NCBI RefSeq assembly: GCF_016735595.1 | Contig: NZ_JAERRB010000004.1 | Location: 1 to 64,000, forward strand | Source: Chryseolinea lacunae | GTDB taxonomy: Bacteria; Bacteroidota; Bacteroidia; Cytophagales; Cyclobacteriaceae | Reading direction: 5' to 3' | DNA: 64,000 nucleotides | Part shown: positions 2,975 through 13,363 of the stretch, piece by piece | How positions within the stretch are numbered: the stretch's first letter is position 1 | How the letters are laid out: every line of letters starts with the position of its first letter | Notes under the pieces: model-generated | Told to the model about the DNA's origin: nothing | The model's database searches: none | The model's input: the letters and a program-made list of their open reading frames with translations, nothing else | Translations under genes and position numbers: made by a program

Positions 2975-3661
2975 ATGAAAAAGAATATCCATTTTATCAC
3001 TCAAGCAAAAGGCGGGTCCGGAAAATCCGTTCTTACATTCATGTTAGCTGAGAAATATAAAGATGCCGTGATACTCGATTTAGATGATGCCACAACTACT
3101 TCGATGAAACAGCTCGCCTATCGAGACCCTATAAGGGTTTCGTTTCTTGATCCGTGCACAAAAAGAATAGACCGCGGTGCTTTTGGCGGCCTTTTTGAAA
3201 GTCTTATCGAAGATGATGATGTATTATATGTTGCAGATCTGGGAGCCAGTGTGGCTGAGCAGTTACCCAAGTATTTTTCAATGAACGGCATTGAGATCAT
3301 CCAGCAGACACTCTCGGAGAATGGAATTGAGCTACAGATCATTTGTGTGATTGGCGGTGGAAACATATTCAAAGCGACAATGGAGTATCTACACGAACTG
3401 CATGACGCAACCAAGGGAGTTATCAAAGTGATTGTTGCGCACAATGGGTTCTATCCGCTGTCGGAAAAACAGCAGGAAGACCTCAATGACTTTCTTGGTG
3501 AAAAGAACCTGCCGTTAATCCACTTCGATTTGGTTAAAGACAAAGGTGAAATAGCAATGCGAACTATTGAAAATGTTTTAAGGGCAGGAAAAGGTATAAG
3601 TGGATTAAGCCCCTTCACGGCCCTATACTTTAGAAAACCAATCGAAGACTTAAATCTTTAA
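2975..3661 (+). CDS. ParA/MinD-like P-loop ATPase of a mobilization module
   Basis: 228 residues. The deviant Walker A motif KGGSGKS (residues 12-18) carries the signature lysine K12. It is followed by an ILDLDD segment near residue 33 and a hydrophobic VADLG segment near residue 85 that serves as Walker B. This is the ParA/MinD/Soj fold, which dimerises on ATP and positions DNA or protein complexes. In Bacteroidota conjugative and mobilizable elements such an ATPase commonly precedes the mob genes. The next gene begins 2 bp after the stop, so the two are co-transcribed. A partner ParB was not recognised. Its role, such as element maintenance or relaxosome positioning, is inferred from context. 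Confidence 0.75.
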   Translation: MKKNIHFITQAKGGSGKSVLTFMLAEKYKDAVILDLDDATTTSMKQLAYRDPIRVSFLDPCTKRIDRGAFGGLFESLIEDDDVLYVADLGASVAEQLPKYFSMNGIEIIQQTLSENGIELQIICVIGGGNIFKATMEYLHELHDATKGVIKVIVAHNGFYPLSEKQQEDLNDFLGEKNLPLIHFDLVKDKGEIAMRTIENVLRAGKGISGLSPFTALYFRKPIEDLNL

Positions 3662-3663
3662 AG

Positions 3664-4203
3664 ATGACACAGGACGAGAAACTAAAACGCGATTTGCGGT
3701 CATACTGTGCCTTTCTGATCAAGGAGTATGGAATTATTTATCCGCCAACCGACCCCGTGATTCCAGCGCTGTTCGCAATTCATAAAGATATGCAGCTAAA
3801 TAATCAGAAAAATGCTGACATCGCTTTTCGCATCCATGAGGCCGCTGCGAAGGTAGAGCCACGGGTATTTCAATTAAATTCTTTCAAGGCAGCATTCGGT
3901 TTTCAACTGGGTATAGCGGCCAAATGGACTTTGTGGGGTGGAATGTTATTAGGTTTTGCTTGGCTCGCGACTTGGGTATGGTCGATCAACGCGGATCTCA
4001 AAAAAGCGAAAATGATAATTGAGTCATCTAAAAAGACAGTTGAGTTGATTCAGAAAGTTAGGATTGACAATGCCGGCTACTATTATATTGACTTTGTTGC
4101 TGCTAAGCGCGGTACTATCAAAAATTTCCATGAATTCACGAAGGTTGACAAGAACACAGTGCGGGTATATCTGGGTAAGGATAGCATTTCGACGCGATAT
4201 TGA
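3664..4203 (+). CDS. One-TM protein of the mobilization operon, function unknown
   Basis: 179 residues starting 2 bp after the ParA-like gene. The N-terminal 85 residues are charged and helical. A single hydrophobic segment at about residues 88-108 (WGGMLLGFAW region) should span the inner membrane, and about 70 residues follow. No signal peptide and no known domain are seen. Its place between the ATPase and the small basic protein suggests a membrane-linked partner of the mobilization or partition machinery. Its stop overlaps the TTG of the next frame. Confidence 0.65.
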   Translation: MTQDEKLKRDLRSYCAFLIKEYGIIYPPTDPVIPALFAIHKDMQLNNQKNADIAFRIHEAAAKVEPRVFQLNSFKAAFGFQLGIAAKWTLWGGMLLGFAWLATWVWSINADLKKAKMIIESSKKTVELIQKVRIDNAGYYYIDFVAAKRGTIKNFHEFTKVDKNTVRVYLGKDSISTRY

Positions 4204-4211
4204 TTTCTGTT

Positions 4212-4577
4212 ATGGAAAAGAAACATATCATTAAATTCTTACAACAGAGAAAGAAGGGCGTTTACAACTTGATTGTTCAATTGTATGCGAATGTAATTAC
4301 TTCTATGGGGCCAACAATGGCGATGGACATAGTCAAAGACGATTTGGAGAAGGAAGCAGGGACGCCGGTTGAAATTCACTATTTCGCGCTTGCACAAGCA
4401 ATACTAAGATATAAGAAGAAGAACCCCAAAGTATCCTCTGGTTCCCTTGAGGGCGGCCAGAGGTTTAGTTTTAAAGATGCGTATGAGTTGAATGATGTCC
4501 AACTAGTTCCAGGAAGATTCAAACGCGATAAAATTGGATCAAGTATTTCAAAGAACGCTAAAAGTAAATCAAAATGA
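4212..4577 (+). CDS. Small basic protein of the mobilization operon, function unknown
   Basis: 121 residues from ATG 4212. A TTG at 4200 in frame would overlap the previous stop by 4 bp and add four residues, so either start is possible. The protein is rich in Lys, and its last 25 residues are strongly basic (RFKRDK...KSKSK), suggesting nucleic-acid contact. The N-terminal part looks helical. I do not recognise a family. It lies at the end of a tight three-gene unit just before the oriT-like hairpins. Confidence 0.6.
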   Translation: MEKKHIIKFLQQRKKGVYNLIVQLYANVITSMGPTMAMDIVKDDLEKEAGTPVEIHYFALAQAILRYKKKNPKVSSGSLEGGQRFSFKDAYELNDVQLVPGRFKRDKIGSSISKNAKSKSK

Positions 4578-4721
4578 ATAAAGTAAATGCAAGTAATAGC
4601 AGCTTAGCTAAACAGGAAGTAGTGCTTGCTTTTAACGGAGCAAGCCATGTTTCTGCTACGCTCCAACGGCTTGGAGAAGCTTTTTATAAATCAACCTGAC
4701 CACTTCGTTCTGTTTTTATAG
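4578..4721 (+). other. Candidate oriT: two hairpins upstream of mobC
   Basis: This 144-bp spacer holds two short hairpins. One has 7-bp arms at 4624-4630 (GCTTGCT) and 4639-4645 with an 8-nt loop. The other has 6-bp arms at 4661-4666 (CTCCAA) and 4671-4676 with a 4-nt loop. A TTAGCTAA palindrome lies near 4603. Inverted repeats just upstream of a MobC/relaxase pair are the usual setting of a nic site. No nic consensus was recognised. Confidence 0.35.
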
Positions 4722-5081
4722 ATGATGTCACGCCCAAAGGTAAACGATATAGACAAGCGTATCATTCAGGTGAACATTCGCCTGACCGAAGCGGAGCATG
4801 CCAAAGCGGTTGCTTATGCGCAAGGCAGCGGCATGACACCCGCGAACTGGATACGTCGGATTGTGTTTACCGGGAAATTTCCATCGGTAAAGTTGTCTCC
4901 CGTAGAAGCGGACCTGTATCGTGAGCTGAAAAGGATCGGCGTTAACCTTAATCAGATAACGCACAGAATCAATCTCGGGGAATTTCCAAAGGAATACAGC
5001 GCCCAACAGGTTGAATTGAAGGAGGCATTGGATTACATATTAAAAGCATTGACCAGTGACGGGGAACCAGATCAAGGGTAA
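4722..5081 (+). CDS. mobC: MobC-like relaxosome accessory protein (ribbon-helix-helix)
   Basis: 119 residues; ATG at 4722, with a second ATG directly after it. The segment IQVNIRLTEAEHAKAV (residues 14-30) is a ribbon-helix-helix beta strand and first helix. GMTPANWIRR and later LKRIGVNLNQITHRIN match the plasmid/transposon MobC family, in which the GxNLNQI segment is conserved. Such proteins bind oriT and help the relaxase open the strands. The relaxase gene starts inside this gene (26-bp overlap), implying translational coupling, as in other Bacteroidota mob cassettes. Confidence 0.85.
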   Translation: MMSRPKVNDIDKRIIQVNIRLTEAEHAKAVAYAQGSGMTPANWIRRIVFTGKFPSVKLSPVEADLYRELKRIGVNLNQITHRINLGEFPKEYSAQQVELKEALDYILKALTSDGEPDQG

Positions 5082-6132
5082 GGGATTCCGTGGCGCGTTG
5101 CGTTACAACCTGGAGAAGGTGGAAAAAAACCTGGCCGAGGTGCTCGACCATTCCTTTTCCCGCGTCACCGAAAAATCAATCATGAAAGAAATTCAGATGG
5201 TGAAGGTACTGCGGCCAAACCTTCAGAAATTTTTCTACCACACCTCCCTGAATTTTCCACCACATGAGAATCTTTCCAATGATACCATGAAACGGATTGC
5301 CAATGATTACCTGAAAGCCAATGGGTTCAATCAGCATCAATTCATCATTTTCAGGCACTACGATGCGGATCACCCACATCTTCATATCCTGGTTAACCGT
5401 ATTGGTTTTGATGGACAGGTGCTAAGCGACTGCAATGATTTCGCACGCAGCGAGAAAATACTCCGTGGTCTTGAAATAAAGTACAACCTCACCAACGTGG
5501 CTCCCAGCAAACAAGCTACAAAGCGGGCTGTCACCAAGGATGAATTGGAGATGATGAAGCGCACGGGACAACCTTCACTTAAAATACAGCTACAGGCAAT
5601 GGTGAAAGGAATCATGGATTCGAATTCCAATATGACGGTTTCAGAATTCATCCAGGCGCTAGAGAAGAAAGGAGTAGCAACGCAATTTAATATTGCCAGT
5701 ACAGGGCATGTGAGCGGTGTGTCGTACTCTTACCAAGGAATGGTAGTGACAGGCTCTAAGCTTGGGAATGAATTCAAGTGGACAACGCTAAAAGATAAAA
5801 TAGACTATGACAAGCAGCGGGATAGCCAAACCATTCTCAATACCAATTCCCGATCAAAAACTGTCGCTGCGAAGCGAGGTGACATGGATGGGCATAAAAA
5901 GTCACCGATTTCGAATGAGAAGTCGACTAAGCACACTTTCGGGACCTACAGAAATTTGGAAGCTAGTCCAAAGACCAAAGGCCTTCCAAACTCAAAGAAT
6001 CCAAGCGAAGCAGACTTGCTGTCCGGCATTATTGGTAGCCTAATCAGCCCTCATCTTGAGCGTGACCAAGCACCAGAAGCATCGCTAGGATTGACACGGA
6101 AGCGGAAACGCAGAAAAAGCTTTGGGCGGTAA
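5056..6132 (+). CDS. mobB: Relaxase/mobilization nuclease (MOBP-like)
   Basis: 358 residues from GTG 5056. The N-terminus (KGKGFRGALRYNL, residues 8-19) is typical of Bacteroidota relaxases and supplies a candidate nicking tyrosine, Y17. The metal-binding three-histidine motif is HYDADHPHLH (residues 101-110; H106, H108, H110). The catalytic domain spans roughly residues 1-160. The C-terminal half is charged and probably handles DNA or partner contacts. The enzyme would nick oriT and pilot the strand during mobilization. It overlaps mobC by 26 bp. No coupling protein or mating-pore gene lies nearby, so transfer depends on another element. Confidence 0.88.
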   Translation: MTGNQIKGKGFRGALRYNLEKVEKNLAEVLDHSFSRVTEKSIMKEIQMVKVLRPNLQKFFYHTSLNFPPHENLSNDTMKRIANDYLKANGFNQHQFIIFRHYDADHPHLHILVNRIGFDGQVLSDCNDFARSEKILRGLEIKYNLTNVAPSKQATKRAVTKDELEMMKRTGQPSLKIQLQAMVKGIMDSNSNMTVSEFIQALEKKGVATQFNIASTGHVSGVSYSYQGMVVTGSKLGNEFKWTTLKDKIDYDKQRDSQTILNTNSRSKTVAAKRGDMDGHKKSPISNEKSTKHTFGTYRNLEASPKTKGLPNSKNPSEADLLSGIIGSLISPHLERDQAPEASLGLTRKRKRRKSFGR

Positions 6133-6353
6133 ATTCACACTCGAAAGATTTTATTGATTGGGTCCAAATCGTTGAAGAATTAATTCTGTCACAAAGATGC
6201 TTCGGGCAGCGGATGCAGCGAGCAGTCAAAAGCTTACGGCATAAAATTCAGGGAGCCTTCGGTCATGTGTCTTTTTCAAATTTATTCCGTTTCCTTATTG
6301 ACAGCTCGGCTACCCTTCGCAAAGGCAGTTCCATAATTAAATTCTTAACGATT

Positions 6354-6824
6354 ATGGAAAACAACACCAATCAATCAAAACAATTCGAAGTGGCAGAAAT
6401 TGAACTGTCTTACAAGTCTTCCATCAAACCTTCTTCCCGGGCCAAGATCAGTAGCTCCAAAGACGCTGGCGCTTTACTGATGCAATCCTGGGACCTGTCA
6501 AAAATTGAACTGGTTGAACAGTTTAAGATACTCTTTGTCAATCGGGCCAATCGCGTCCTGGGTATCTACGAACTCTCTACCGGTGGCATGAGCGCTACCG
6601 TCGTTGATCCCAAGCTCATCTTTGTTGCAGCCTTAAAAGTAGGTGCCTCTGGCATCATATTAAGCCACAACCATCCTTCTGGAAATCTCACGCCAAGCCA
6701 AGCAGACATTAGCTTTACCAAGCGAATCAGCGAAGGCGCTAAGCTGTTGGAAATCCAACTGATGGACCACATCATACTTACTAGCGAAAGCTATTATTCA
6801 TTCGCAGACGAGGGGTTATTATAG
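6354..6824 (+). CDS. RadC-type JAB/MPN-domain protein
   Basis: 156 residues from ATG 6354; an upstream in-frame extension to 6213 has no family resemblance and was not used. The whole protein is the RadC JAMM domain: metal ligands in SHNHPSGNLTPSQAD (H105, H107, D118) with an upstream Glu near residue 55. The N-terminal helix-hairpin-helix region of full-length chromosomal RadC is absent. This short form is common on Bacteroidota mobile elements, phage islands and plasmids. Its biochemical role is unsettled despite the historical DNA-repair name. A weak hairpin (arms 6811-6815 and 6825-6829) spans the stop codon. Confidence 0.88.
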   Translation: MENNTNQSKQFEVAEIELSYKSSIKPSSRAKISSSKDAGALLMQSWDLSKIELVEQFKILFVNRANRVLGIYELSTGGMSATVVDPKLIFVAALKVGASGIILSHNHPSGNLTPSQADISFTKRISEGAKLLEIQLMDHIILTSESYYSFADEGLL

Positions 6825-6835
6825 CCCCTTATTTC

Positions 6836-6861
6836 CTCACTTTAAAAAACGAATAAGTGAG
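6836..6861. other. Small hairpin downstream of radC
   Basis: Arms CTCACTT (6836-6842) and AAGTGAG (6855-6861) enclose a 12-nt loop containing a run of A on the plus strand and T on the minus strand. The right arm lies inside a block, ACGAATAAGTG, that recurs at 9067-9077 upstream of the sigma gene. It may end the minus-strand transcript coming from the dCas12f-like gene, although no T-run follows the stem in the usual place. Confidence 0.3.
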
Positions 6862-6919
6862 CCGTTGTATGTAAGAATTAGGACCTGGTGTCTGGAAAAA
6901 CATTTTTGTCTTTGATTAA

Positions 6920-7067
6920 GTCCACGCCAATGGCCTTCTATCACGACGCTCATCATGTTCCTCCGTTGGCCAGCATTCCGGACCTTACTTAGTGAGTGCT
7001 AATCTTGGCCTCACTTTACGGGTTTACAAGCACCCTCTTTTTTTTTCGACGCTCAAGTCAAAAAAAG
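6920..7067 (-). ncRNA. Candidate guide-RNA scaffold downstream of the dCas12f-like gene
   Basis: This gene-free block directly follows the dCas12f-like stop on the same strand, the position where TnpB omega-RNAs and several Cas12f-like guides are encoded. It can fold into a hairpin with arms 6991-6996 and 7010-7015. It can also form a long closing stem: 6920-6923 with 6980-6983, then 6926-6930 with 6966-6970, and 6932-6933 with 6963-6964 beyond one mismatch. Its 3' arm contains the 13-bp motif CCACGCCAATGGC (plus strand, 6922-6934) that recurs at 9081-9093. If this reading is right, the guide starts near 6919 and runs to lower coordinates. The long stem would also fold on the plus strand, so strand and ends are guesses from position. 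Confidence 0.35.
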
Positions 7068-8165
7068 TTATTCTGTTATGATCGTTATCCCTGCCCGCGC
7101 GGCTTTGTAGGCCAGTTTCTCTTTCAACCCGCCATAGCCCCAGTTCCGGAAAACAAATGCATTGTTCTTCGCTTGTTCTTCTTTCTCCTGTTGGTTTACA
7201 AGAATCAGTGTTGCTGCCTTATGAGCGAGGCAAAGGTCAATCACCTTTTTGCTGTAGGTGTGGAGCTTGGTGCGAACAAACGCTTTCTCAATGTCCTTGA
7301 ATTTGGCGGCACCTTGGAACTTTCGCTTTTTACCTTTGCCGCCGCGACAAAATGTGGCGGCGCTCAAGGCGCGTTGTCGCGCCGCCTGGATGGCCATGCG
7401 CCTGTATAAGAACTCTTCCTTGCTACCGACCTTGAATACAGCTTTTCCGATGGTGAGCACTACCGGATAGTCAAGGGACAGGGATGCTTCGGCAATTATT
7501 TCATCGGAAAGGACGAGCTGCTCCTTTTTCTGTTCAAAAGTGGCAAGCAGATATAGCTTTCGTTTTGCCAGCTGTAGAGAACTGCCGCAGAATTTAACTG
7601 TCCCCTCCAGCCATTGTTGCATTAGTCTGCGCTTGTCCACCTGGTCGTGACCCAGATAGGTTCGAAAGGGAATGGAGAATAGTTGAAAACTGTATTCGTT
7701 CCGCTCCTTGATATAGGTGAGCCGACGCACGTTCTCGGCCAGAAACGGTATAGGAATATCGTGCTTATAATTCGAGATCGATTCTTCTCCACGCTGATAC
7801 GCTCCAGCTTTTTGGGAATAGGTAACCACTAAGGTATGATTTAACGCATTTAGAATATGCATCGGGATCAGTCCTTTGAATTGGCTGGAGAGGAACCGGT
7901 AGGTGCTGTTCTGGCGGGAGGTTGTCAGCATCCCTTGAGGATCGGTCGTCCAATCCGCAAGCTTGAGTTGGATATCCTCCCTCAGATACACCATGTCTTT
8001 TAACTGGTGTTGGATGAACTGGTGCGTGAAAAGGTAGTTGGCGCTTCGCTGGCAGATAGACTGCCAGCGGGACAAGGTCTTATAAGCGTCCTTGATGAAG
8101 TCTTTGTCAGGGCTATCTATCAGTATCTGGATCTTTCGCGTCGTGGTGATTGTAGTTTCTTTCAT
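7068..8165 (-). CDS. Nuclease-dead Cas12f/TnpB-like RNA-guided protein (dCas12f-like)
   Basis: 365 residues from ATG 8165. The C-terminal half follows the TnpB/Cas12f RuvC layout. A YPVVLTIG...KVGSKEEFLYRRMAIQ segment (233-260) corresponds to the region around RuvC-I. An Arg/Lys-rich bridge (273-300) follows, then ATLILVNQ (318-325) at RuvC-II, and WGYGGLKEKLAYKAARAGI (342-360). By my manual alignment the RuvC-I Asp is replaced (the ASLS segment, 227-230) and the RuvC-II Glu is replaced by N324. The protein ends at residue 365, before the zinc ribbon and RuvC-III Asp. It should therefore bind RNA and DNA without cutting. It lies 18 bp after an ECF sigma gene on the same strand, the arrangement reported for dCas12f-sigmaE RNA-guided transcription in Bacteroidota. 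A TldR-type repressor is the alternative. No TnpA is present. Confidence 0.82.
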   Translation of the reverse strand: MKETTITTTRKIQILIDSPDKDFIKDAYKTLSRWQSICQRSANYLFTHQFIQHQLKDMVYLREDIQLKLADWTTDPQGMLTTSRQNSTYRFLSSQFKGLIPMHILNALNHTLVVTYSQKAGAYQRGEESISNYKHDIPIPFLAENVRRLTYIKERNEYSFQLFSIPFRTYLGHDQVDKRRLMQQWLEGTVKFCGSSLQLAKRKLYLLATFEQKKEQLVLSDEIIAEASLSLDYPVVLTIGKAVFKVGSKEEFLYRRMAIQAARQRALSAATFCRGGKGKKRKFQGAAKFKDIEKAFVRTKLHTYSKKVIDLCLAHKAATLILVNQQEKEEQAKNNAFVFRNWGYGGLKEKLAYKAARAGITIITE

Positions 8166-8183
8166 TGCGACAGGTAACGGGTA

Positions 8184-8951
8184 TTAAATCTCTTTTAAGA
8201 TGGCATGTGCTTTTACATATTGCTGCTGGACATAGGGTAGAGGGAGTTTTAGAAGTTCGGAAATTTGCAGGAAGGTATAGTGAAGATTTAGCCGCATTGA
8301 ATATATGTGACTCTGTTCAGTCGTTAGCCTATCATGATAGAATCGAATTTCTGTGGAAGTTCGTCTGTAGATTGATGAAGACGTTTTCGGGACTAATAGC
8401 GAGCGCAGGTATTCACAGGCGCTTTCAATTTCCTTGTTCACTGTTTGAACAGGTAGCTTTAAGCGTTGAGAGATTTCTTTCGCGGTTAATCCCTCACAAA
8501 GATGCAGATCAAGTATCCGTCGTTGCCCGTGATTGGGAAGTGACGGGATACGCAGGAGCACTTCATTTAGGAATTTACTCTTTGAGTCTACTCCATCTTG
8601 TTCAGGGAATGAATCAATAGCTTTTGTGTCAAACCAGTCAAGACTGACAAGGCGGCGGTAGAATTGTAGCTTTGAATTTCGATAATAGGCCATACATTCC
8701 CAACGCACAATTAGTTTTAAGAATCTTCTAATGTGGTCCATGCTGGTCATTCTCTCTCTGAATACCCACATCTTCAAAAAGGCTTCTTGAATAATGGAAT
8801 TTACAGTGAATTCGTCTTGGACAAGTCGAAGGCCATATCGCTGAATAGGTTTTGACAGTCTGTTATATATAAGCGTTAGACCGTGCTCTGAGTCGGAGGT
8901 GAAGACTTGAAAAATTTGATGTTCGCTAGTATCGATCTGATTTTTTTTCAT
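8184..8951 (-). CDS. ECF-like sigma factor partnered with dCas12f, with a second region-4-like module
   Basis: 255 residues from ATG 8951. Region 2 (about 22-92) shows the ECF pattern LIYNRLSKPIQRYG...IIQEAFLKMW...HIRRFL. Region 4 (about 128-186) reads LPNHGQRRILDLHLCEGLTAKEISQRLKLPVQTV with its helix-turn-helix. A further 70 residues follow, longer than the usual ~190-residue ECF factor. The stretch 207-255 (LTTEQSHIYSMRL...ISELLKLPLPYV...AHAIL) looks like a second region-4 helix-turn-helix. No anti-sigma gene is adjacent; instead the dCas12f-like gene follows after 18 bp. This suggests that RNA polymerase is directed by the RNA-guided partner rather than by promoter motifs or an anti-sigma. 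The leader holds several inverted repeats. Confidence 0.85.
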   Translation of the reverse strand: MKKNQIDTSEHQIFQVFTSDSEHGLTLIYNRLSKPIQRYGLRLVQDEFTVNSIIQEAFLKMWVFRERMTSMDHIRRFLKLIVRWECMAYYRNSKLQFYRRLVSLDWFDTKAIDSFPEQDGVDSKSKFLNEVLLRIPSLPNHGQRRILDLHLCEGLTAKEISQRLKLPVQTVNKEIESACEYLRSLLVPKTSSSIYRRTSTEIRFYHDRLTTEQSHIYSMRLNLHYTFLQISELLKLPLPYVQQQYVKAHAILKEI

Positions 8952-9064
8952 GCGCTCCTTTAATTCAGATTTAGAATCTGGAGCGTCTTACTGTAAGTCA
9001 GGTGCTTACATAAAAAATATGGCGTGGAACCCAACTTACATGTCCGAGGTACTGGTATACCTAT

Positions 9065-9120
9065 CCACGAATAAGTGGGCCCACGCCAATGGCGTGAGCA
9101 CATCACTTATTGTCCCGTGG
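9065..9120. repeat. Nested three-tier hairpin with motif shared with the dCas12f downstream flank
   Basis: Outer arms CCACG (9065-9069) and CGTGG (9116-9120); middle arms AATAAGTG (9070-9077) and CACTTATT (9104-9111); inner palindrome CACGCCAATGGCGTG (9082-9096). Together they give about 20 base pairs with a 4-nt bulge. The inner CCACGCCAATGGC (9081-9093) is identical to 6922-6934, and ACGAATAAGTG (9067-9077) is identical to 6848-6858. No T-run follows, so it is not a standard terminator. It may be part of a structured RNA, a target site or a protein-binding site. Confidence 0.7.
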
Positions 9121-9219
9121 ATTTGAAAATTACCAGTTTTCGGACGCGACGCTAAGTGCGAATGCTTTAATTTCTTATAACAATCGCTAATTTATTAATA
9201 ACTAATCTATGCAACAGCA

Positions 9220-9250
9220 GCTAAGATCATTTGCTTAGTTATAGCTAAGC
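9220..9250. promoter_or_regulatory. Candidate operator: GCTAAG half-site repeats
   Basis: GCTTAG (9233-9238) and CTAAGC (9245-9250) form an inverted repeat with a 6-nt centre. Another GCTAAG (9220-9225) pairs with CTTAG at 9234-9238, and a further copy lies at 9151-9156. The cluster ends 38 bp before the XRE start codon, consistent with an autoregulatory operator that might also affect the divergent sigma-dCas12f operon. Confidence 0.4.
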
Positions 9251-9287
9251 GCAATAATAATGATCTTTTTTGTATTTGCCAATACGC

Positions 9288-9524
9288 ATGGCAAAGAAAT
9301 CAAAATTCGAAATTTCTGTTATCGATCGCGTTAGAGAAGTGCGCCAAAAAAAGGGATACACGCAAGACGACTTAGCCATGTTTTTAAATGTATCCAGAGG
9401 TTTTATTGGCCAAGTTGAAAGCCCCAATTCCGCGAGCAAGTATAAACTTGATCATCTGAACCAATTAGCAAAAGAAATGGACTGTTCTCCCAAAGACTTT
9501 TTGCCGGAAAAGTATATAAAATAA
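9288..9524 (+). CDS. XRE-family helix-turn-helix regulator
   Basis: 78 residues from ATG 9288; an in-frame TTG at 9270 would add six residues. The Cro/CI-type helix-turn-helix fills the protein: RVREVRQKKGYTQDDLAMFLNVSRGFIGQVES, with the recognition helix near NVSRGFIG. No second domain is present. Small XRE proteins of this type often control mobile-element genes. The GCTAAG repeat cluster immediately upstream is a likely binding site. It is divergent from the sigma-dCas12f operon, so it could set that operon's expression. Confidence 0.85.
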   Translation: MAKKSKFEISVIDRVREVRQKKGYTQDDLAMFLNVSRGFIGQVESPNSASKYKLDHLNQLAKEMDCSPKDFLPEKYIK

Positions 9525-9594
9525 CAGTCACAAGGCCTCGTAAAAACCTGCGAATCAGTATTGGCCTCGACTTCGAGCGTTACTTCAAAATCGT

Positions 9595-10152
9595 TTAGTC
9601 ACCGCTGGTTATTGGGATTTTCAGGGATTCCTTTTTCTTACCCTTGTGAGCTTTCGAAATATGTCCATCAAGAGATCTTTTATTTGGAAATGGACCCGCT
9701 TCGCATTCATCGCACCAGTGTTCAACGATTTTCTCTTTGTCTGCCGTTACACGTTTGAAAAAAAGCTCGCTTAATTGCCATACCGCTAGCGAATGCGTCA
9801 TGCAGATCAAGAAACTTATCACCGTCATCTTTACATTTTCAATGGATGGTTCTTTTACTGCCAAAAACCAATAGTCGTAATAGAGCGCATTGAGAAAGAA
9901 ACTGACCACGGCGTAGAACTTCCCAATTGATCGATAACCATTAATAACAAAGATTAAGATTAGAAATTCGATTACAGCCGCAAGCGCAATACCATAGAAC
10001 CAATTCATGAACGTAAGGCCAAATAAGGTCATATCAAGGTGCTCTAAATCCTTGAAAAGGTGTCCGGCGTGTGGCACGTAGAGGATGATTAATGCTAGGG
10101 CACCATGAAAGACCACCTCTTTGCTTTCTAGATATGTGACAATTTTGTTCAT
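9595..10152 (-). CDS. Four-TM membrane protein with a C-terminal C2H2 zinc-finger-like tail
   Basis: 185 residues. Hydrophobic segments lie at about 13-30, 50-71, 78-98 and 108-132. The last 50 residues are soluble and carry CDEC (C147, C150) followed by H164 and H169 in LDGHISKAHK. That is the C-x2-C...H-x4-H spacing of a classical C2H2 zinc finger, with a basic tail after it. A DNA- or protein-binding finger on a membrane anchor is unusual in bacteria. The gene ends an integrase-linked pair, its start lying 3 bp downstream of the integrase stop, so it is probably co-transcribed with the integrase. No function is recognised. Confidence 0.7.
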   Translation of the reverse strand: MNKIVTYLESKEVVFHGALALIILYVPHAGHLFKDLEHLDMTLFGLTFMNWFYGIALAAVIEFLILIFVINGYRSIGKFYAVVSFFLNALYYDYWFLAVKEPSIENVKMTVISFLICMTHSLAVWQLSELFFKRVTADKEKIVEHWCDECEAGPFPNKRSLDGHISKAHKGKKKESLKIPITSGD

Positions 10153-10155
10153 ATA

Positions 10156-11418
10156 TTAAGATTTATCCTTGTTATCAATTGTTGAGTTGGTTGCGACCAT
10201 GTTTGATTGAAGTCTTTCCTTCAACATGGTCATGTCATTACTTACTTTGATGTCGAGTATTTTGGCATAGTGCTGGGTGGTTTTTAAATTTCTATGACCG
10301 AGCATTTTGCTCACCGTCTCTATGGGAACGCCATTGGTTAAGGTCACTGTTGTGGCAAAAGTATGCCGAGCTGTATGAAATGTCATTTTTTTGGTGATGC
10401 CGCAAGCATCTGCTATCTCCTTTAAATAGGTGTTCATTTTTTGATTGCTAAGAACAGGTAGGAGTTTTTCGTTATTTAAGCACTGGGGATCAGCGCTGTA
10501 ACGATTAAGGATTTCTAGAGCTTGAGGCAATAACGGCACCCGTGTTGCAGTATCCGTTTTCTGCCTTTTCGTCCATATCCATTTCTCGCCATCAATTCCA
10601 GTCGTGATTTCATCCCTCGTTAATTTCTCAACATCTGCATAGGAAAGGCCAGTATAGCAGCAAAAGACAAATACGTCTCGAACTTGCTTGATTCGAAGAA
10701 TGTTAAACTCTTTTTTTGTAATTTTCTCTAATTCGCCTTCTAGCAAAAAAGGTCTTTCAACCTCTCTTTTAGACATCTTGAAGCCAACGAAGGGATCACG
10801 GTCGAGCCAACCATTTTTAATGCAGAGGTTTACTATTTTCTTGAAGTTGGAGAGATATTTCATTGCGGTATTGTGATCACATCTTCGCACTGACTTCAGC
10901 CAAAATTCATAGTCCGTTATAAATTCATAGTTGAGCTTTTTAATATCGATATCGTTCACTTTATACTTCCAATTCATGAACTCTTGCGTGTGTTTTTTAG
11001 ATGTTATGTAACGCTCCAAAGTGAGAGGAGAAAACTCGCGATTGACTAGGGATTTCATCTGGCCATTATGCTGTTCGAAAATTTCCATGAGCATTCTTGA
11101 CCTTTCCGATGAAATTCCTTGCCAGCGATTTTTAAACTCCTGTAGAGTGAGTGGTTTGCCCTCCACAAGAATTTGCCGTTGATGGTCAAATGCTTTTGCG
11201 CGTAGTGTTTCGAGGAATGAATTGATGGATCGTGCTATTTCCGAATTGCCTTTTGCTTTACCGGCTTCAACAGACCAATTCTGTATAGGAATGAATCTCT
11301 TGGTGCCGAGATCGTATCGCTCGCCATTGAGCGTTACCCGCATGTAGATGGGTACCTCACCACGATGGTTTGGTTTTGACTTTCTCGCGAAAAACAGGAC
11401 GCTAATTGTTGCATTCAT
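10156..11418 (-). CDS. int: IntDOT-type tyrosine integrase
   Basis: 420 residues from ATG 11418. An in-frame extension to 11466 exists but lacks family resemblance. The N-terminal arm-binding domain (NATISVLFFARKSKPNHRG...) is the form found in Bacteroidota integrases. A SAM-like core-binding domain (about 105-210) and the catalytic domain follow: K286, the HTARH motif with H348 and R351, H375 in GHRN, and nucleophile Y384. The first Arg box reads TGLSYAD, with Ser where most tyrosine recombinases have Arg, as known for IntDOT-like enzymes. It would integrate and excise the element, and sits next to tRNA-Ser. Confidence 0.92.
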   Translation of the reverse strand: MNATISVLFFARKSKPNHRGEVPIYMRVTLNGERYDLGTKRFIPIQNWSVEAGKAKGNSEIARSINSFLETLRAKAFDHQRQILVEGKPLTLQEFKNRWQGISSERSRMLMEIFEQHNGQMKSLVNREFSPLTLERYITSKKHTQEFMNWKYKVNDIDIKKLNYEFITDYEFWLKSVRRCDHNTAMKYLSNFKKIVNLCIKNGWLDRDPFVGFKMSKREVERPFLLEGELEKITKKEFNILRIKQVRDVFVFCCYTGLSYADVEKLTRDEITTGIDGEKWIWTKRQKTDTATRVPLLPQALEILNRYSADPQCLNNEKLLPVLSNQKMNTYLKEIADACGITKKMTFHTARHTFATTVTLTNGVPIETVSKMLGHRNLKTTQHYAKILDIKVSNDMTMLKERLQSNMVATNSTIDNKDKS

Positions 11419-11502
11419 TGTATTGTATTTTAGTTGAAAATACGTCGCCGGTGCACCTGAAAACAAGATGTTCTTGCGTTGAACTAGTTGTTTTTCAGAT
11501 AC

Positions 11503-11577
11503 TTGTGAGCAATTCGGTGCACTTGGTTTTTGGCTTAGACCAAGTGCACCGATTCTCCACCTACGAGTTGCTTACAA
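11503..11577. repeat. Double inverted repeat between integrase and tRNA-Ser; candidate att/integrase site
   Basis: Perfect 14-bp arms at 11514-11527 and 11539-11552 flank an 11-nt centre. Outside them lie TTGTGAGCAA (11503-11512) and TTGCTTACAA (11568-11577), matching 9 of 10 as an inverted pair. Lying just upstream of the integrase and before the tRNA terminator, these may be core or arm sites of the integrase, or an operator for it. No second copy was found in the window. Confidence 0.4.
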
Positions 11578-11606
11578 TTGAATGTTTTGGATGGCCCAAA
11601 AAAGAA

Positions 11607-11639
11607 AAAACCCCGAATTCATTACGAATTCGGGGTTTT
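11607..11639 (-). terminator. Terminator downstream of tRNA-Ser
   Basis: A perfect 14-bp inverted repeat (arms 11607-11620 and 11626-11639) with a 5-nt loop. A/T tracts flank both sides, so it can act in both directions. On the minus strand it lies about 24 bp beyond the tRNA 3' end. Confidence 0.85.
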
Positions 11640-11662
11640 AACTTTGTTTGGTGTGTAGTTCG

Positions 11663-11747
11663 CAGAGGAGGAGGGATTCGAACCCCCGGAACCTTGCGGT
11701 TCAACGGTTTTCAAGACCGCCGCATTCGACCGCTCTGCCACTCCTCT
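11663..11747 (-). tRNA. tRNA-Ser (anticodon UGA)
   Basis: The 85-nt minus-strand sequence pairs 5' AGAGGAG (11747-11741) with 3' CTCCTCT and has a G discriminator at 11663. The D arm begins GGCAGAGCGG. The anticodon loop CTTGAAA gives UGA. The long variable arm is built on AACCGCAAGGTT, and the T arm contains GGTTCGAATCC. The class II variable arm and anticodon both specify serine. CCA is not encoded. The gene is a likely integration target for the adjacent integrase. Confidence 0.97.
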
Positions 11748-11824
11748 GTGTGTTTGCGGTGATTTTGGGAGTGCAAATGTATATGTTTCTGGGTTTTCGG
11801 CCAACCCTGGCTGGCAACTTTCCC

Positions 11825-13363
11825 TTATTTTGTTTCGTCGCCGTAGTCCAGGAACACTCTGCGGATGTCTTTGTCGTCGATTTTGTTCACGTTTTTGTTG
11901 TAGGCGTCCAGTTCCAGGAGCACGATGCGCTGGTCGTTGAGGGCGGCGCGCATTTTTTCGATGTCTTTGTCGAATTCGGGGCTGCGGCGGTTCACTTTGA
12001 GGGCGTATTTGCGGGCAAAGTCGTCGCCGGTAGATTGGATTTTGTTGCGCAAGTCGATGCTGATTTTGATTTTTTCGAGGATGTTCTCCTTGCTACGGCC
12101 GATCACTTCGGTGGCTTCGAGGGTGCCAAGTGTGAGCACCGTTGTGCCGCCCACGCCGCTGACGGCCTTGGCGCTGTTGGGATCGTCGACAATGATCGGG
12201 GTGAAACCGGTGACGGCACCCAGGGAGGCGTTGACGATGGAGCGGTTTTTCTTGCCCTTCTTGGCTTTCTTATAGTCCTGGTTCAGTTTCTTTTGGTTGG
12301 CATCGATTTGCTGGAGCAGCACGATGGCGTCGATGAGGTTGCCGCGGTATTTTGAAAACAGGTGAGCGTCTTTCTTGATCATGTTTTCGGTGTCGGCCAC
12401 TTTGATTTTCACTTTCTTCTGGGTGCGGTTGTTTGATTTGTCGAGCACGAAGAACGTGATTTCGGGGGTGAGGGAAGTTTGGGCGTCGTCTACAAATTCG
12501 TAGCCGGGTGTCCAGGTAAATTCGTAGAGCAGTTGTGTGTTTTCTTTGAAGCTGGCGGCGGGTATGCGTTTGTCGCTGGCAATGAAGCCGGCGCTGCGCA
12601 CGTTGTCGTCGCCGTTGGGATCGCTGATGTAGATTTTGAGGTTCAGGGTTTCGTCTTCTTTGATGGAGAAGAGTGTGTCGATGGGAAGGATCTGAATTTC
12701 GGAGGGCAGGTCAAGTTGTGTTTGTGCGATCCGGAGTTTGCCTTTTGTTTCGGCTTTGTCGGGTTGATCCTGGGCAATGAACTCGATGGTGAGGGGGTTG
12801 TTTTTGAGGTTTGCAAATTGTGTGCGCGAGGGTGTCCAGGTGAACTGTCCCTGCGAGGAGAGTGCTGCGCCTTCGGGCAGTTGGGTTTGGGGTGAGCGGA
12901 ACGACATGGGGTCGCCATCTTCGTCGTAGACATAGTCGGCGCTGATCTGGTATGAATTTTCTTTGCCTTGCTTGACATAGAGCACGGGCAACTCTTCGGC
13001 TACTGGCGGGCGGTTAACGTGCTTGACGATGAACGATATGGTTTTGCGTTCGCGCTTGCCGTCGGGTTGTGCGGCCTGGAAAATGAGCGAGATGTCTTTT
13101 GTTTTTGCTACACGGTCCACCAGGTCGAAGGACGGCTTCCAGCTAAAGTTTCCCAGGGAGTCGAACTGTATGCCCAGGCCTTCGGTGCCCTCGATGGAGA
13201 AGCGCGCTTTGACTTCGGGACGTGTTTTGACGCGAAAATTTAATTCTTGATTTTCGTTCAAAACATTCCAGCCAACCGAATCGGGAAAGATCAGTTGTAT
13301 GTTTTGTGCGTAGACGATGGTGGTGGAGATGAGGCAGAGTGACAGAAAGATGGTTCGCTTCAC
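11825..13363 (-). CDS. Secreted beta-sandwich (cadherin/Ig-like) protein
   Basis: 512 residues from GTG 13363, which gives a clean signal peptide (KRTIFLSLCLISTTIVYAQ). A TTG at 13411 in frame would place 16 residues before it. The body contains two or three repeats ending in F/W-S/T-W-x-P (NFSWKPS, QFTWTPS, EFTWTPG) together with YDEDGDP and SDPNGDD. That is the cadherin-like calcium-binding pattern of Bacteroidota surface proteins. The last 180 residues are charged and helical. It is probably periplasmic or outer-membrane associated. No enzymatic motif is seen, and the gene is monocistronic and divergent from the alkyltransferase-like gene. Confidence 0.75.
   Translation of the reverse strand: MKRTIFLSLCLISTTIVYAQNIQLIFPDSVGWNVLNENQELNFRVKTRPEVKARFSIEGTEGLGIQFDSLGNFSWKPSFDLVDRVAKTKDISLIFQAAQPDGKRERKTISFIVKHVNRPPVAEELPVLYVKQGKENSYQISADYVYDEDGDPMSFRSPQTQLPEGAALSSQGQFTWTPSRTQFANLKNNPLTIEFIAQDQPDKAETKGKLRIAQTQLDLPSEIQILPIDTLFSIKEDETLNLKIYISDPNGDDNVRSAGFIASDKRIPAASFKENTQLLYEFTWTPGYEFVDDAQTSLTPEITFFVLDKSNNRTQKKVKIKVADTENMIKKDAHLFSKYRGNLIDAIVLLQQIDANQKKLNQDYKKAKKGKKNRSIVNASLGAVTGFTPIIVDDPNSAKAVSGVGGTTVLTLGTLEATEVIGRSKENILEKIKISIDLRNKIQSTGDDFARKYALKVNRRSPEFDKDIEKMRAALNDQRIVLLELDAYNKNVNKIDDKDIRRVFLDYGDETK

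Follow-up and report, generated by a model that had tools for sequence, protein, structure and literature searches.

The window analysed here is a 64,000-nucleotide stretch of the genome of Chryseolinea lacunae (contig NZ_JAERRB010000004.1, positions 1 to 64,000), in which a gene for an extracytoplasmic function (ECF) sigma factor, hereafter sigmaE, is followed on the minus strand by a gene for a nuclease-dead Cas12f protein (dCas12f) and by a guide RNA. The guide matches a conserved, structured leader element upstream of the same operon, and we consider it probable that the locus encodes a dCas12f-sigmaE system of RNA-guided transcription, borne on a mobilizable element and targeting leader elements including its own. 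Read most safely, the sequence predicts a mobile RNA-guided activator whose targets would be leader elements, among them the one before its own genes.

The dCas12f-sigmaE pair

The 365-aa protein encoded at 7068..8165 (minus strand) belongs to the established dCas12f-sigmaE family. Pfam yielded zero matches for it. A sequence search of the Protein Data Bank (PDB) aligned its residues 3-363 with chain 9n9c_A, 'Nuclease-deactivated Cas12f' (E 4.4e-108), and Cas12f effectors not labelled as deactivated were weaker matches (best 4e-31). An AlphaFold2 model based on 61 homologues (mean pLDDT 79.6) was preferred to a shallow AlphaFold model (6 sequences, pLDDT 51), which was set aside. The top two Foldseek matches to the retained model were 9n9m (E 5e-38) and 9n9c (E 4e-37), with a TM-score of only 0.63; their PDB titles describe a dCas12f-gRNA-DNA complex and a dCas12f-gRNA complex, respectively. 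The best matches by both methods, the second resting on a predicted structure, thus point to dCas12f rather than to an unrelated fold. We take 9n9c, 9n9m, 9n9o and 9n9q to represent the dCas12f-sigmaE system of Flagellimonas taeanensis, the organism and function being as described in preprints; a literature search, with bioRxiv preprints outside its coverage, found no paper describing this family.

Relatives were collected by an alignment query of GTDB contigs, which found 216, and the best 80 were analysed (L004 and L051 are one contig); a scan of genome contigs with one protein yielded none. The record titles of the 80 name what we take to be Bacteroidota genera or metagenome-assembled genomes (MAGs). 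Protein searches for dCas12f relatives found none in plasmids and none in phages. The window protein shares 96% identity with a sister copy in its own genome; of the 60 other homologues in the alignment, 59 share 44-53% with it (L052, with an internal stop, was left out of alignment A6). The sequence-only reading, made earlier from the letters of this DNA, had called it a diverged member of the dCas12f-sigmaE group; the membership stands, and a strong divergence does not, the protein being a fairly typical member.

The RuvC-I aspartate, which that reading had placed as replaced at residues 227-230, corresponds to S228, and the 61 homologues have S (56), A (3) or H (2) at this position, with D or E in none. 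The RuvC-II glutamate is lost as well, its exact position being V323 in the HMMER alignment or N324 in the earlier manual one, and the RuvC triad is not intact in the alignment. Among the 61 homologues, residue 324 is N (47), D (9), G (3), K (1) or E (1). The sole E324 homologue is L088, a 31-kb IMG/VR viral contig with a dCas12f-sigma pair, in which the glutamate falls at the putative RuvC-II position. The C-terminus ends short of what we take to be the positions of RuvC-III and the zinc ribbon, in agreement with the earlier description, and the solved homologue is also 365 aa long, with the same early stop.

An active type V-F CRISPR or TnpB nuclease is accordingly an exceedingly improbable identity for this protein. 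It does score against two NCBIfam profiles, in each case below the cut-off: guided_TnpB gave 53.7 bits where 100 are required, and Cas12f2 gave 23.3 where 450 are required. The replacement of the RuvC-I aspartate in 61/61 homologues and the loss of RuvC-III refute the active-nuclease reading by sequence, and no CRISPR array was present among the 20 direct-repeat families listed of 35 in window 4000-12000. Nuclease-active Cas12f proteins have an intact RuvC domain and occur in CRISPR or transposon contexts. The window protein shares its fold with Al3Cas12f, CnCas12f1 and AsCas12f (Foldseek E 4e-21 to 3e-18), and the nuclease-active proteins are longer.

The 255-aa sigmaE (8184..8951, minus strand) ends 18 bp before dcas12f, so both open reading frames (ORFs) described by the sequence-only reading, ECF-like sigma first and Cas12f/TnpB-like second, are present as it had them. 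It matched the RpoE chain 9n9q_C (E 1e-27) in the PDB search, and it scored above the NCBIfam sigma70-ECF cut-off (43.9 vs 42.9 bits) and below that of Sig70_bacteroi1 (79.6 vs 126.4 bits). Of the 80 relative loci, 75 gave a sigma match, which in 68 lay no more than 60 nt from dcas12f. Two Sphingobacterium loci (L061 5674 and L078 5542) have the guide scaffold upstream of dcas12f, and neither gave a match for sigma.

The window system thus resembles the solved dCas12f-sigmaE in its full-length dCas12f and sigma matches and in the order of its genes, with RuvC inactivated, the C-terminus truncated, a guide RNA encoded behind dcas12f and a G beside its targets. It differs from the system at L025 in that its third scaffold hairpin is about 100 nt longer and in that its guide matches the leader element; it also lies on two mobilizable elements, with its own operon's leader as one predicted target. 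TldR proteins are described as TnpB-derived nuclease-dead RNA-guided transcription repressors, some of them phage-encoded (PMC13418256), and the window protein is likewise a nuclease-dead, presumably RNA-guided transcription factor of the TnpB/Cas12 lineage. Unlike TldR, it is a Cas12f with a sigma factor, its TnpB profile score is sub-cut-off, and its best PDB matches are dCas12f and Cas12f. We know of no TldR with a sigma partner.

The guide RNA and its predicted targets

The guide RNA is encoded directly after dcas12f and comprises a scaffold (6864..7037, minus strand) ending in ATACAAC and a guide (6844..6863, minus strand) with the core GGCTCACTTATTCG followed by a U-run. The window scaffold forms hairpins with the stems GGGT/ACCC and GTGAG/CTCAC, and a third, GTAAG/CTTAC, that is enlarged by about 100 nt. 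The scaffold is conserved in 79 of the 80 relative loci, with the consensus GGGTGCTTGTACACCC, GTGAG..CTCAC, usually a third small hairpin, typically TATACAAC, and then variable sequence. In 61 loci it starts no more than 25 nt beyond the dcas12f match, in 16 at 26-300 nt and in 2 upstream; at L074 the scaffold pattern was missed, and a blastn match was present. In 16 loci there are two to five scaffold copies with a different sequence after each, which makes the border between scaffold and guide easier to place. In our genome, the pattern of the first hairpin occurs exactly only at the two dCas12f copies, with two one-mismatch matches elsewhere and four matches for the control. Compared with shuffled sequences, the window guide RNA folds with no clear gain in stability (z -1.35, 17/200 as good), so the scaffold call rests on conservation.

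The extra sequence of the third hairpin contains, at window 6916-6934 on the minus strand, CCATTGGCGTGGACTTAA (core at 6922-6933), which resembles the leader element in its tip and B arm, as though the guide RNA had recombined with a leader. At three places (L015 7260-7310, window 6830-6863 and L003), the sequence after the guide is complementary to it (CTCACTT/AAGTGAG, CTCGCTTATT/AATGAGCGAG); over all guides, complementarity between the guide and its 3' flank was not above chance.

The predicted DNA target of the guide in the window is 9062..9081 (minus strand), with 13 of the 14 core positions matched, one G-U wobble and the 5'-G at 9082. A pattern search of our genome with GGGCYCACTTATTCG gave three exact sites, C24:9068-9082 (the window site, minus strand), C12:421436-421450 and C5:23758-23772, and two one-mismatch sites, both of which are the guides themselves; the reversed control pattern gave one match. 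All three sites match the 14-nt core at 13/14 plus the wobble, with the 5'-G adjoining. A 181-nt piece around the window target has exactly three copies in the genome, at these same three sites, so the guide points at a repeated element. The sites precede the sigma operon of the window, the sister operon (C12), and an operon of TlpA/DUF3738, SusC and SusD genes (C5). The 14-nt guide core is identical in the second copy (L003), and the system had earlier been called reprogrammable. The sequence gives no support for this description, with one scaffold per copy, a common core and both guides directed at one element family.

The correspondence between guides and elements extends to the relatives. 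Removal of 13 scaffold matches without a readable guide from a total of 116 left 103 guides, including our own two (the L019 guide at 7109 was probably placed a few bases early). Some element was matched at 13/14 or better by 48 of the 103 guides, compared with 1 of 309 shuffled guides, and at 12/14 or better by 53, compared with 20 of 309. Fifty of these 53 guides match on the same strand and the same arm, B, with a G directly before the match. Within single genomes, guides matched their own elements at 14/14 in L012, at 14/14 and 13/14 in L024, at 13/14 at five elements in L063 and at two in L073, at 13/14 in L032, at 12/14 plus two wobbles in L015 and, in our genome, at 13/14 plus the wobble at three. 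The L015 genome has one G-flanked guide match with two mismatches, and it lies inside its own element. The target-adjacent motif of dCas12f-sigmaE is a 5'-G, and the G before the matches agrees with this requirement.

The leader element and the proposed mechanism

The leader element (9011..9170, minus strand) contains arm A (9111-9091), arm B (from 9087), arm C (9039-9021) and a U-run (from 9017). Element-like blocks (E up to 0.01, at least 120 nt) were found in 37 of the 80 relative loci, in 29 of them within 300 nt before sigma. Regular-expression matches in 43 loci, some plainly due to chance, were reduced to 30 distinct sequences, which together with the window element and L077 formed alignment A4, and covariance model R1 was built from these 32 sequences. 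Genome-wide (the L053 genome was left out), the model found the element in 14 of 15 dCas12f genomes, in one to five copies each. In draws that include our own genome and were searched with strict filters and differing E limits, 30 of the 192 family genomes carry the element, among them every one of the 5 dCas12f genomes (our own included). Of the 296 genomes of the phylum draw, 34 have the element and 4 have dCas12f. The element is therefore commoner than dCas12f and probably independent of it.

The proteins of the pair are already known, and the leader has no match in Rfam 15. The window element had none to E 10; four relatives had none at the gathering score except tRNAs, and four others none to E 1. 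The leader resembles the RNA families of that database in being structured, ending in a U-run and lying upstream of operons. Searches of plasmids gave one partial element match (52% covered), on a mobilizable Rhizosphaericola plasmid, and searches of phages gave none.

The arms of the element covary. In 71 distinct elements, with relatedness uncorrected, pairing of arms with their own partners was compared with pairing with swapped partners: P1 (at least 5 bp) formed in 70/71 own vs 956/4890 swapped combinations, P2 in 69/71 vs 1364/3106, P3 in 70/71 vs 1960/4910 and P4 in 62/71 vs 1498/2866. Arm B is complementary to A as well as to C, which makes the A:B and B:C pairings mutually exclusive; RNAalifold (32 sequences) favours B:C, and the B:C stem with its U's resembles an intrinsic terminator. 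Covarying inverted repeats could also be DNA hairpins, and we regard as unlikely, if not negligibly so, a role purely as DNA, in which the element would be a cruciform or would be an operator for the divergent helix-turn-helix (HTH) protein and would serve the guide simply as an address. A small divergent ORF lies 60-240 nt upstream of 35 of 45 elements (a count without a control), and Pfam assigned an HTH domain to 7 of the 10 such genes that we chose to examine and to those upstream of all three elements of our genome, which would suit an operator; the window gene is of the Cro/C1 type (9288..9524, plus strand; HTH_3, 2.2e-6). The asymmetry of the element argues for RNA, with TTTT at the 3' end in 66/71 and, at the 5' end, TTTT in 5/71 and AAAA in 0/71, as does the longest downstream ORF, which shares the strand of the element in 36 of the 43 cases with such an ORF (2 of the 45 elements have none).

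These 45 elements are those with loci from the genome searches, minus four already known: L127, L128, L130 and those of our own genome. The genes downstream of 20 of them, chosen by us partly for a receptor-like appearance by eye, were submitted to Pfam and comprised TonB Plug or CarboxypepD_reg (10), redoxin/thioredoxin (TlpA) (4), ECF sigma (2), response regulator (1) and HEPN (1) genes, with no match for two; of the other 25 elements, 7 precede sigma-dcas12f. In one Sinomicrobium genome, four extra elements (L102, L121, L125 and L126) stand beside genes unlike uptake operons, one of which has a HEPN domain (Pfam).

We infer the following sequence of events. The dCas12f protein would bind its neighbouring guide RNA, and the complex would bind segment B next to the 5'-G at its own leader, the sister leader and the C5 leader. 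Guided transcription in dCas12f-sigmaE systems starts at a fixed distance downstream of the R-loop. The bound complex would thus position sigmaE and RNA polymerase, and transcription would begin downstream of the R-loop, with positive feedback on sigma-dcas12f and activation of the uptake operon as the predicted outcome. By default, arm C of the leader would pair with B, and the resulting stem and U-run would probably end or limit transcription; a guided start near arm C would give a transcript without B, and this block would be bypassed. In its widest form, the proposal is that the leader limits TonB/SusCD-type uptake operons across Bacteroidota and that a guide copied from its most conserved arm activates every copy in the host, including those on its own and other mobile elements, by starting past the terminator. 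We advance this wider form only tentatively, as a possibility that we would not favour over its contrary.

Two other outcomes of the same match were considered. Because the target lies inside a region of conserved base pairing that is presumably transcribed through, dCas12f-sigmaE might be recruited to B and repress leader transcription in the manner of TldR, with sigmaE only tuning the effect; we think this rather unlikely, given that the sigma factor and dCas12f are relatives of a pair solved together that is reported to activate. Still a little less likely, in our judgement, is a decoy or anti-guide RNA, in which the leader transcript would titrate the dCas12f-gRNA complex and the operon would be limited rather than activated. 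The complementarity of both A and C to B, which the guide copies, would allow such titration; the guides matching the sense arm beside a G do so as a DNA target needs, and the element precedes uptake genes in genomes in which dCas12f was not found.

Several observations weigh against guided activation at leader elements as we propose it. The match between guide and target covers only about 14 nt, with a wobble at position 4, and the U's beyond it are unmatched. The guides of L008, L009, L025, L042 and L077 have no match to elements of their own genomes, and L025 is, we presume, Allomuricauda/Flagellimonas taeanensis, the species of the solved system. The L045 guide matches weakly, at 10-11 of 14 and best on the other strand; the L016 guide matches at 12/14 and is preceded by T instead of G; one of the two L085 guides matches at 12/14, at one of three elements. 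The guides are not independent, ten letters being common to 30 of the 103, and the G beside the match is close to one observation, given the conservation of B and its flank. In the phylum draw, three of the four dCas12f genomes have the element and G291 does not, and model R1 found none in the L010 genome, where the best G-flanked guide match had three mismatches and was no better than the control (4 per strand). Pairings A:B and B:C gain almost nothing over swapped partners, B being nearly invariant, and support for the 5' stem that a second state would need is weak at best (CACTTA/TAAGTG in 27/71 vs 1219/3630; TCTCG/CGAGA in 58/71 vs 2621/4508), so that a two-state switch rests on complementarity. 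Finally, the SusC start codons lie about 425-740 nt downstream of the element in many cases, and at this distance a separate promoter is possible.

Guides of the L025 type were also searched for G-flanked sites with at most three mismatches, and, besides the guides, two of four genomes each had one such 17/20 site. The L152 site precedes a SusC gene, and the locus of the L151 site ends at a contig end; the control pattern gave 0 or 1 match per strand, and these sites are therefore suggestive only. By eye, the near-match site of L152 (1380-1520) lies in an imperfect hairpin whose sequence is unlike the leader family.

The mobilizable setting and its implications

The mobilizable setting is real and occurs twice in the genome, as the sequence-only reading had proposed for the window from its relaxase and integrase genes. 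In the window, the mobilization block starts with a gene (2975..3661, plus strand) that lacks a Pfam match and that we take to encode a ParA-like ATPase from its KGGSGKS motif. Genes assigned by Pfam to a NikA/MobC mobilization protein (4722..5081), a MobA/VirD2-like relaxase (5056..6132) and a RadC-like JAB protein (6213..6824) follow on the plus strand, the last of them convergent with the guide RNA. A tyrosine integrase gene (10156..11466, minus strand; Pfam) adjoins a tRNA-Ser gene (11662..11747, minus strand), a possible integration site; when 11401-11800 was compared with the window for attachment repeats, no direct match longer than 13 nt was found elsewhere. The leader element was also considered as an origin of transfer and rejected, as it lies about 2.9 kb from the relaxase gene and many of its other copies precede uptake genes.

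The second dCas12f copy in the 7.9-Mb genome (C12:419439-420533) also adjoins relaxase, RadC-like and MobC-like genes. Beside the sister copy, L003 12124-17266 encodes, judged by eye, a protein of 1151 aa whose end is histidine-kinase-like, together with two proteins resembling receivers, one of them with a phosphorylase-like C-terminal part. The targeted SusCD operon on C5 ends about 3 kb before genes for a relaxase, a type IV secretion system coupling protein and a TraG ATPase (L098 1439-9398, corresponding to C5:32838-40797), and a ParA-like gene (L097 4405-5022) falls within sequence that shares 90-96% identity with the sister dCas12f element; the operon may be cargo of another mobile or conjugative element. 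The family draw includes five other genomes of this genus, and neither dCas12f nor the leader element was found in them, which fits acquisition.

These findings give a natural RNA-guided activator concrete predicted targets in one genome, its own leader included. One guide directed at a conserved leader could work in many hosts, and this suggests why such systems would spread. The leader family itself looks like a separate regulatory element of Bacteroidota, often of nutrient-uptake operons, and the link between guide and leader opens the natural function of guided transcription to direct testing.

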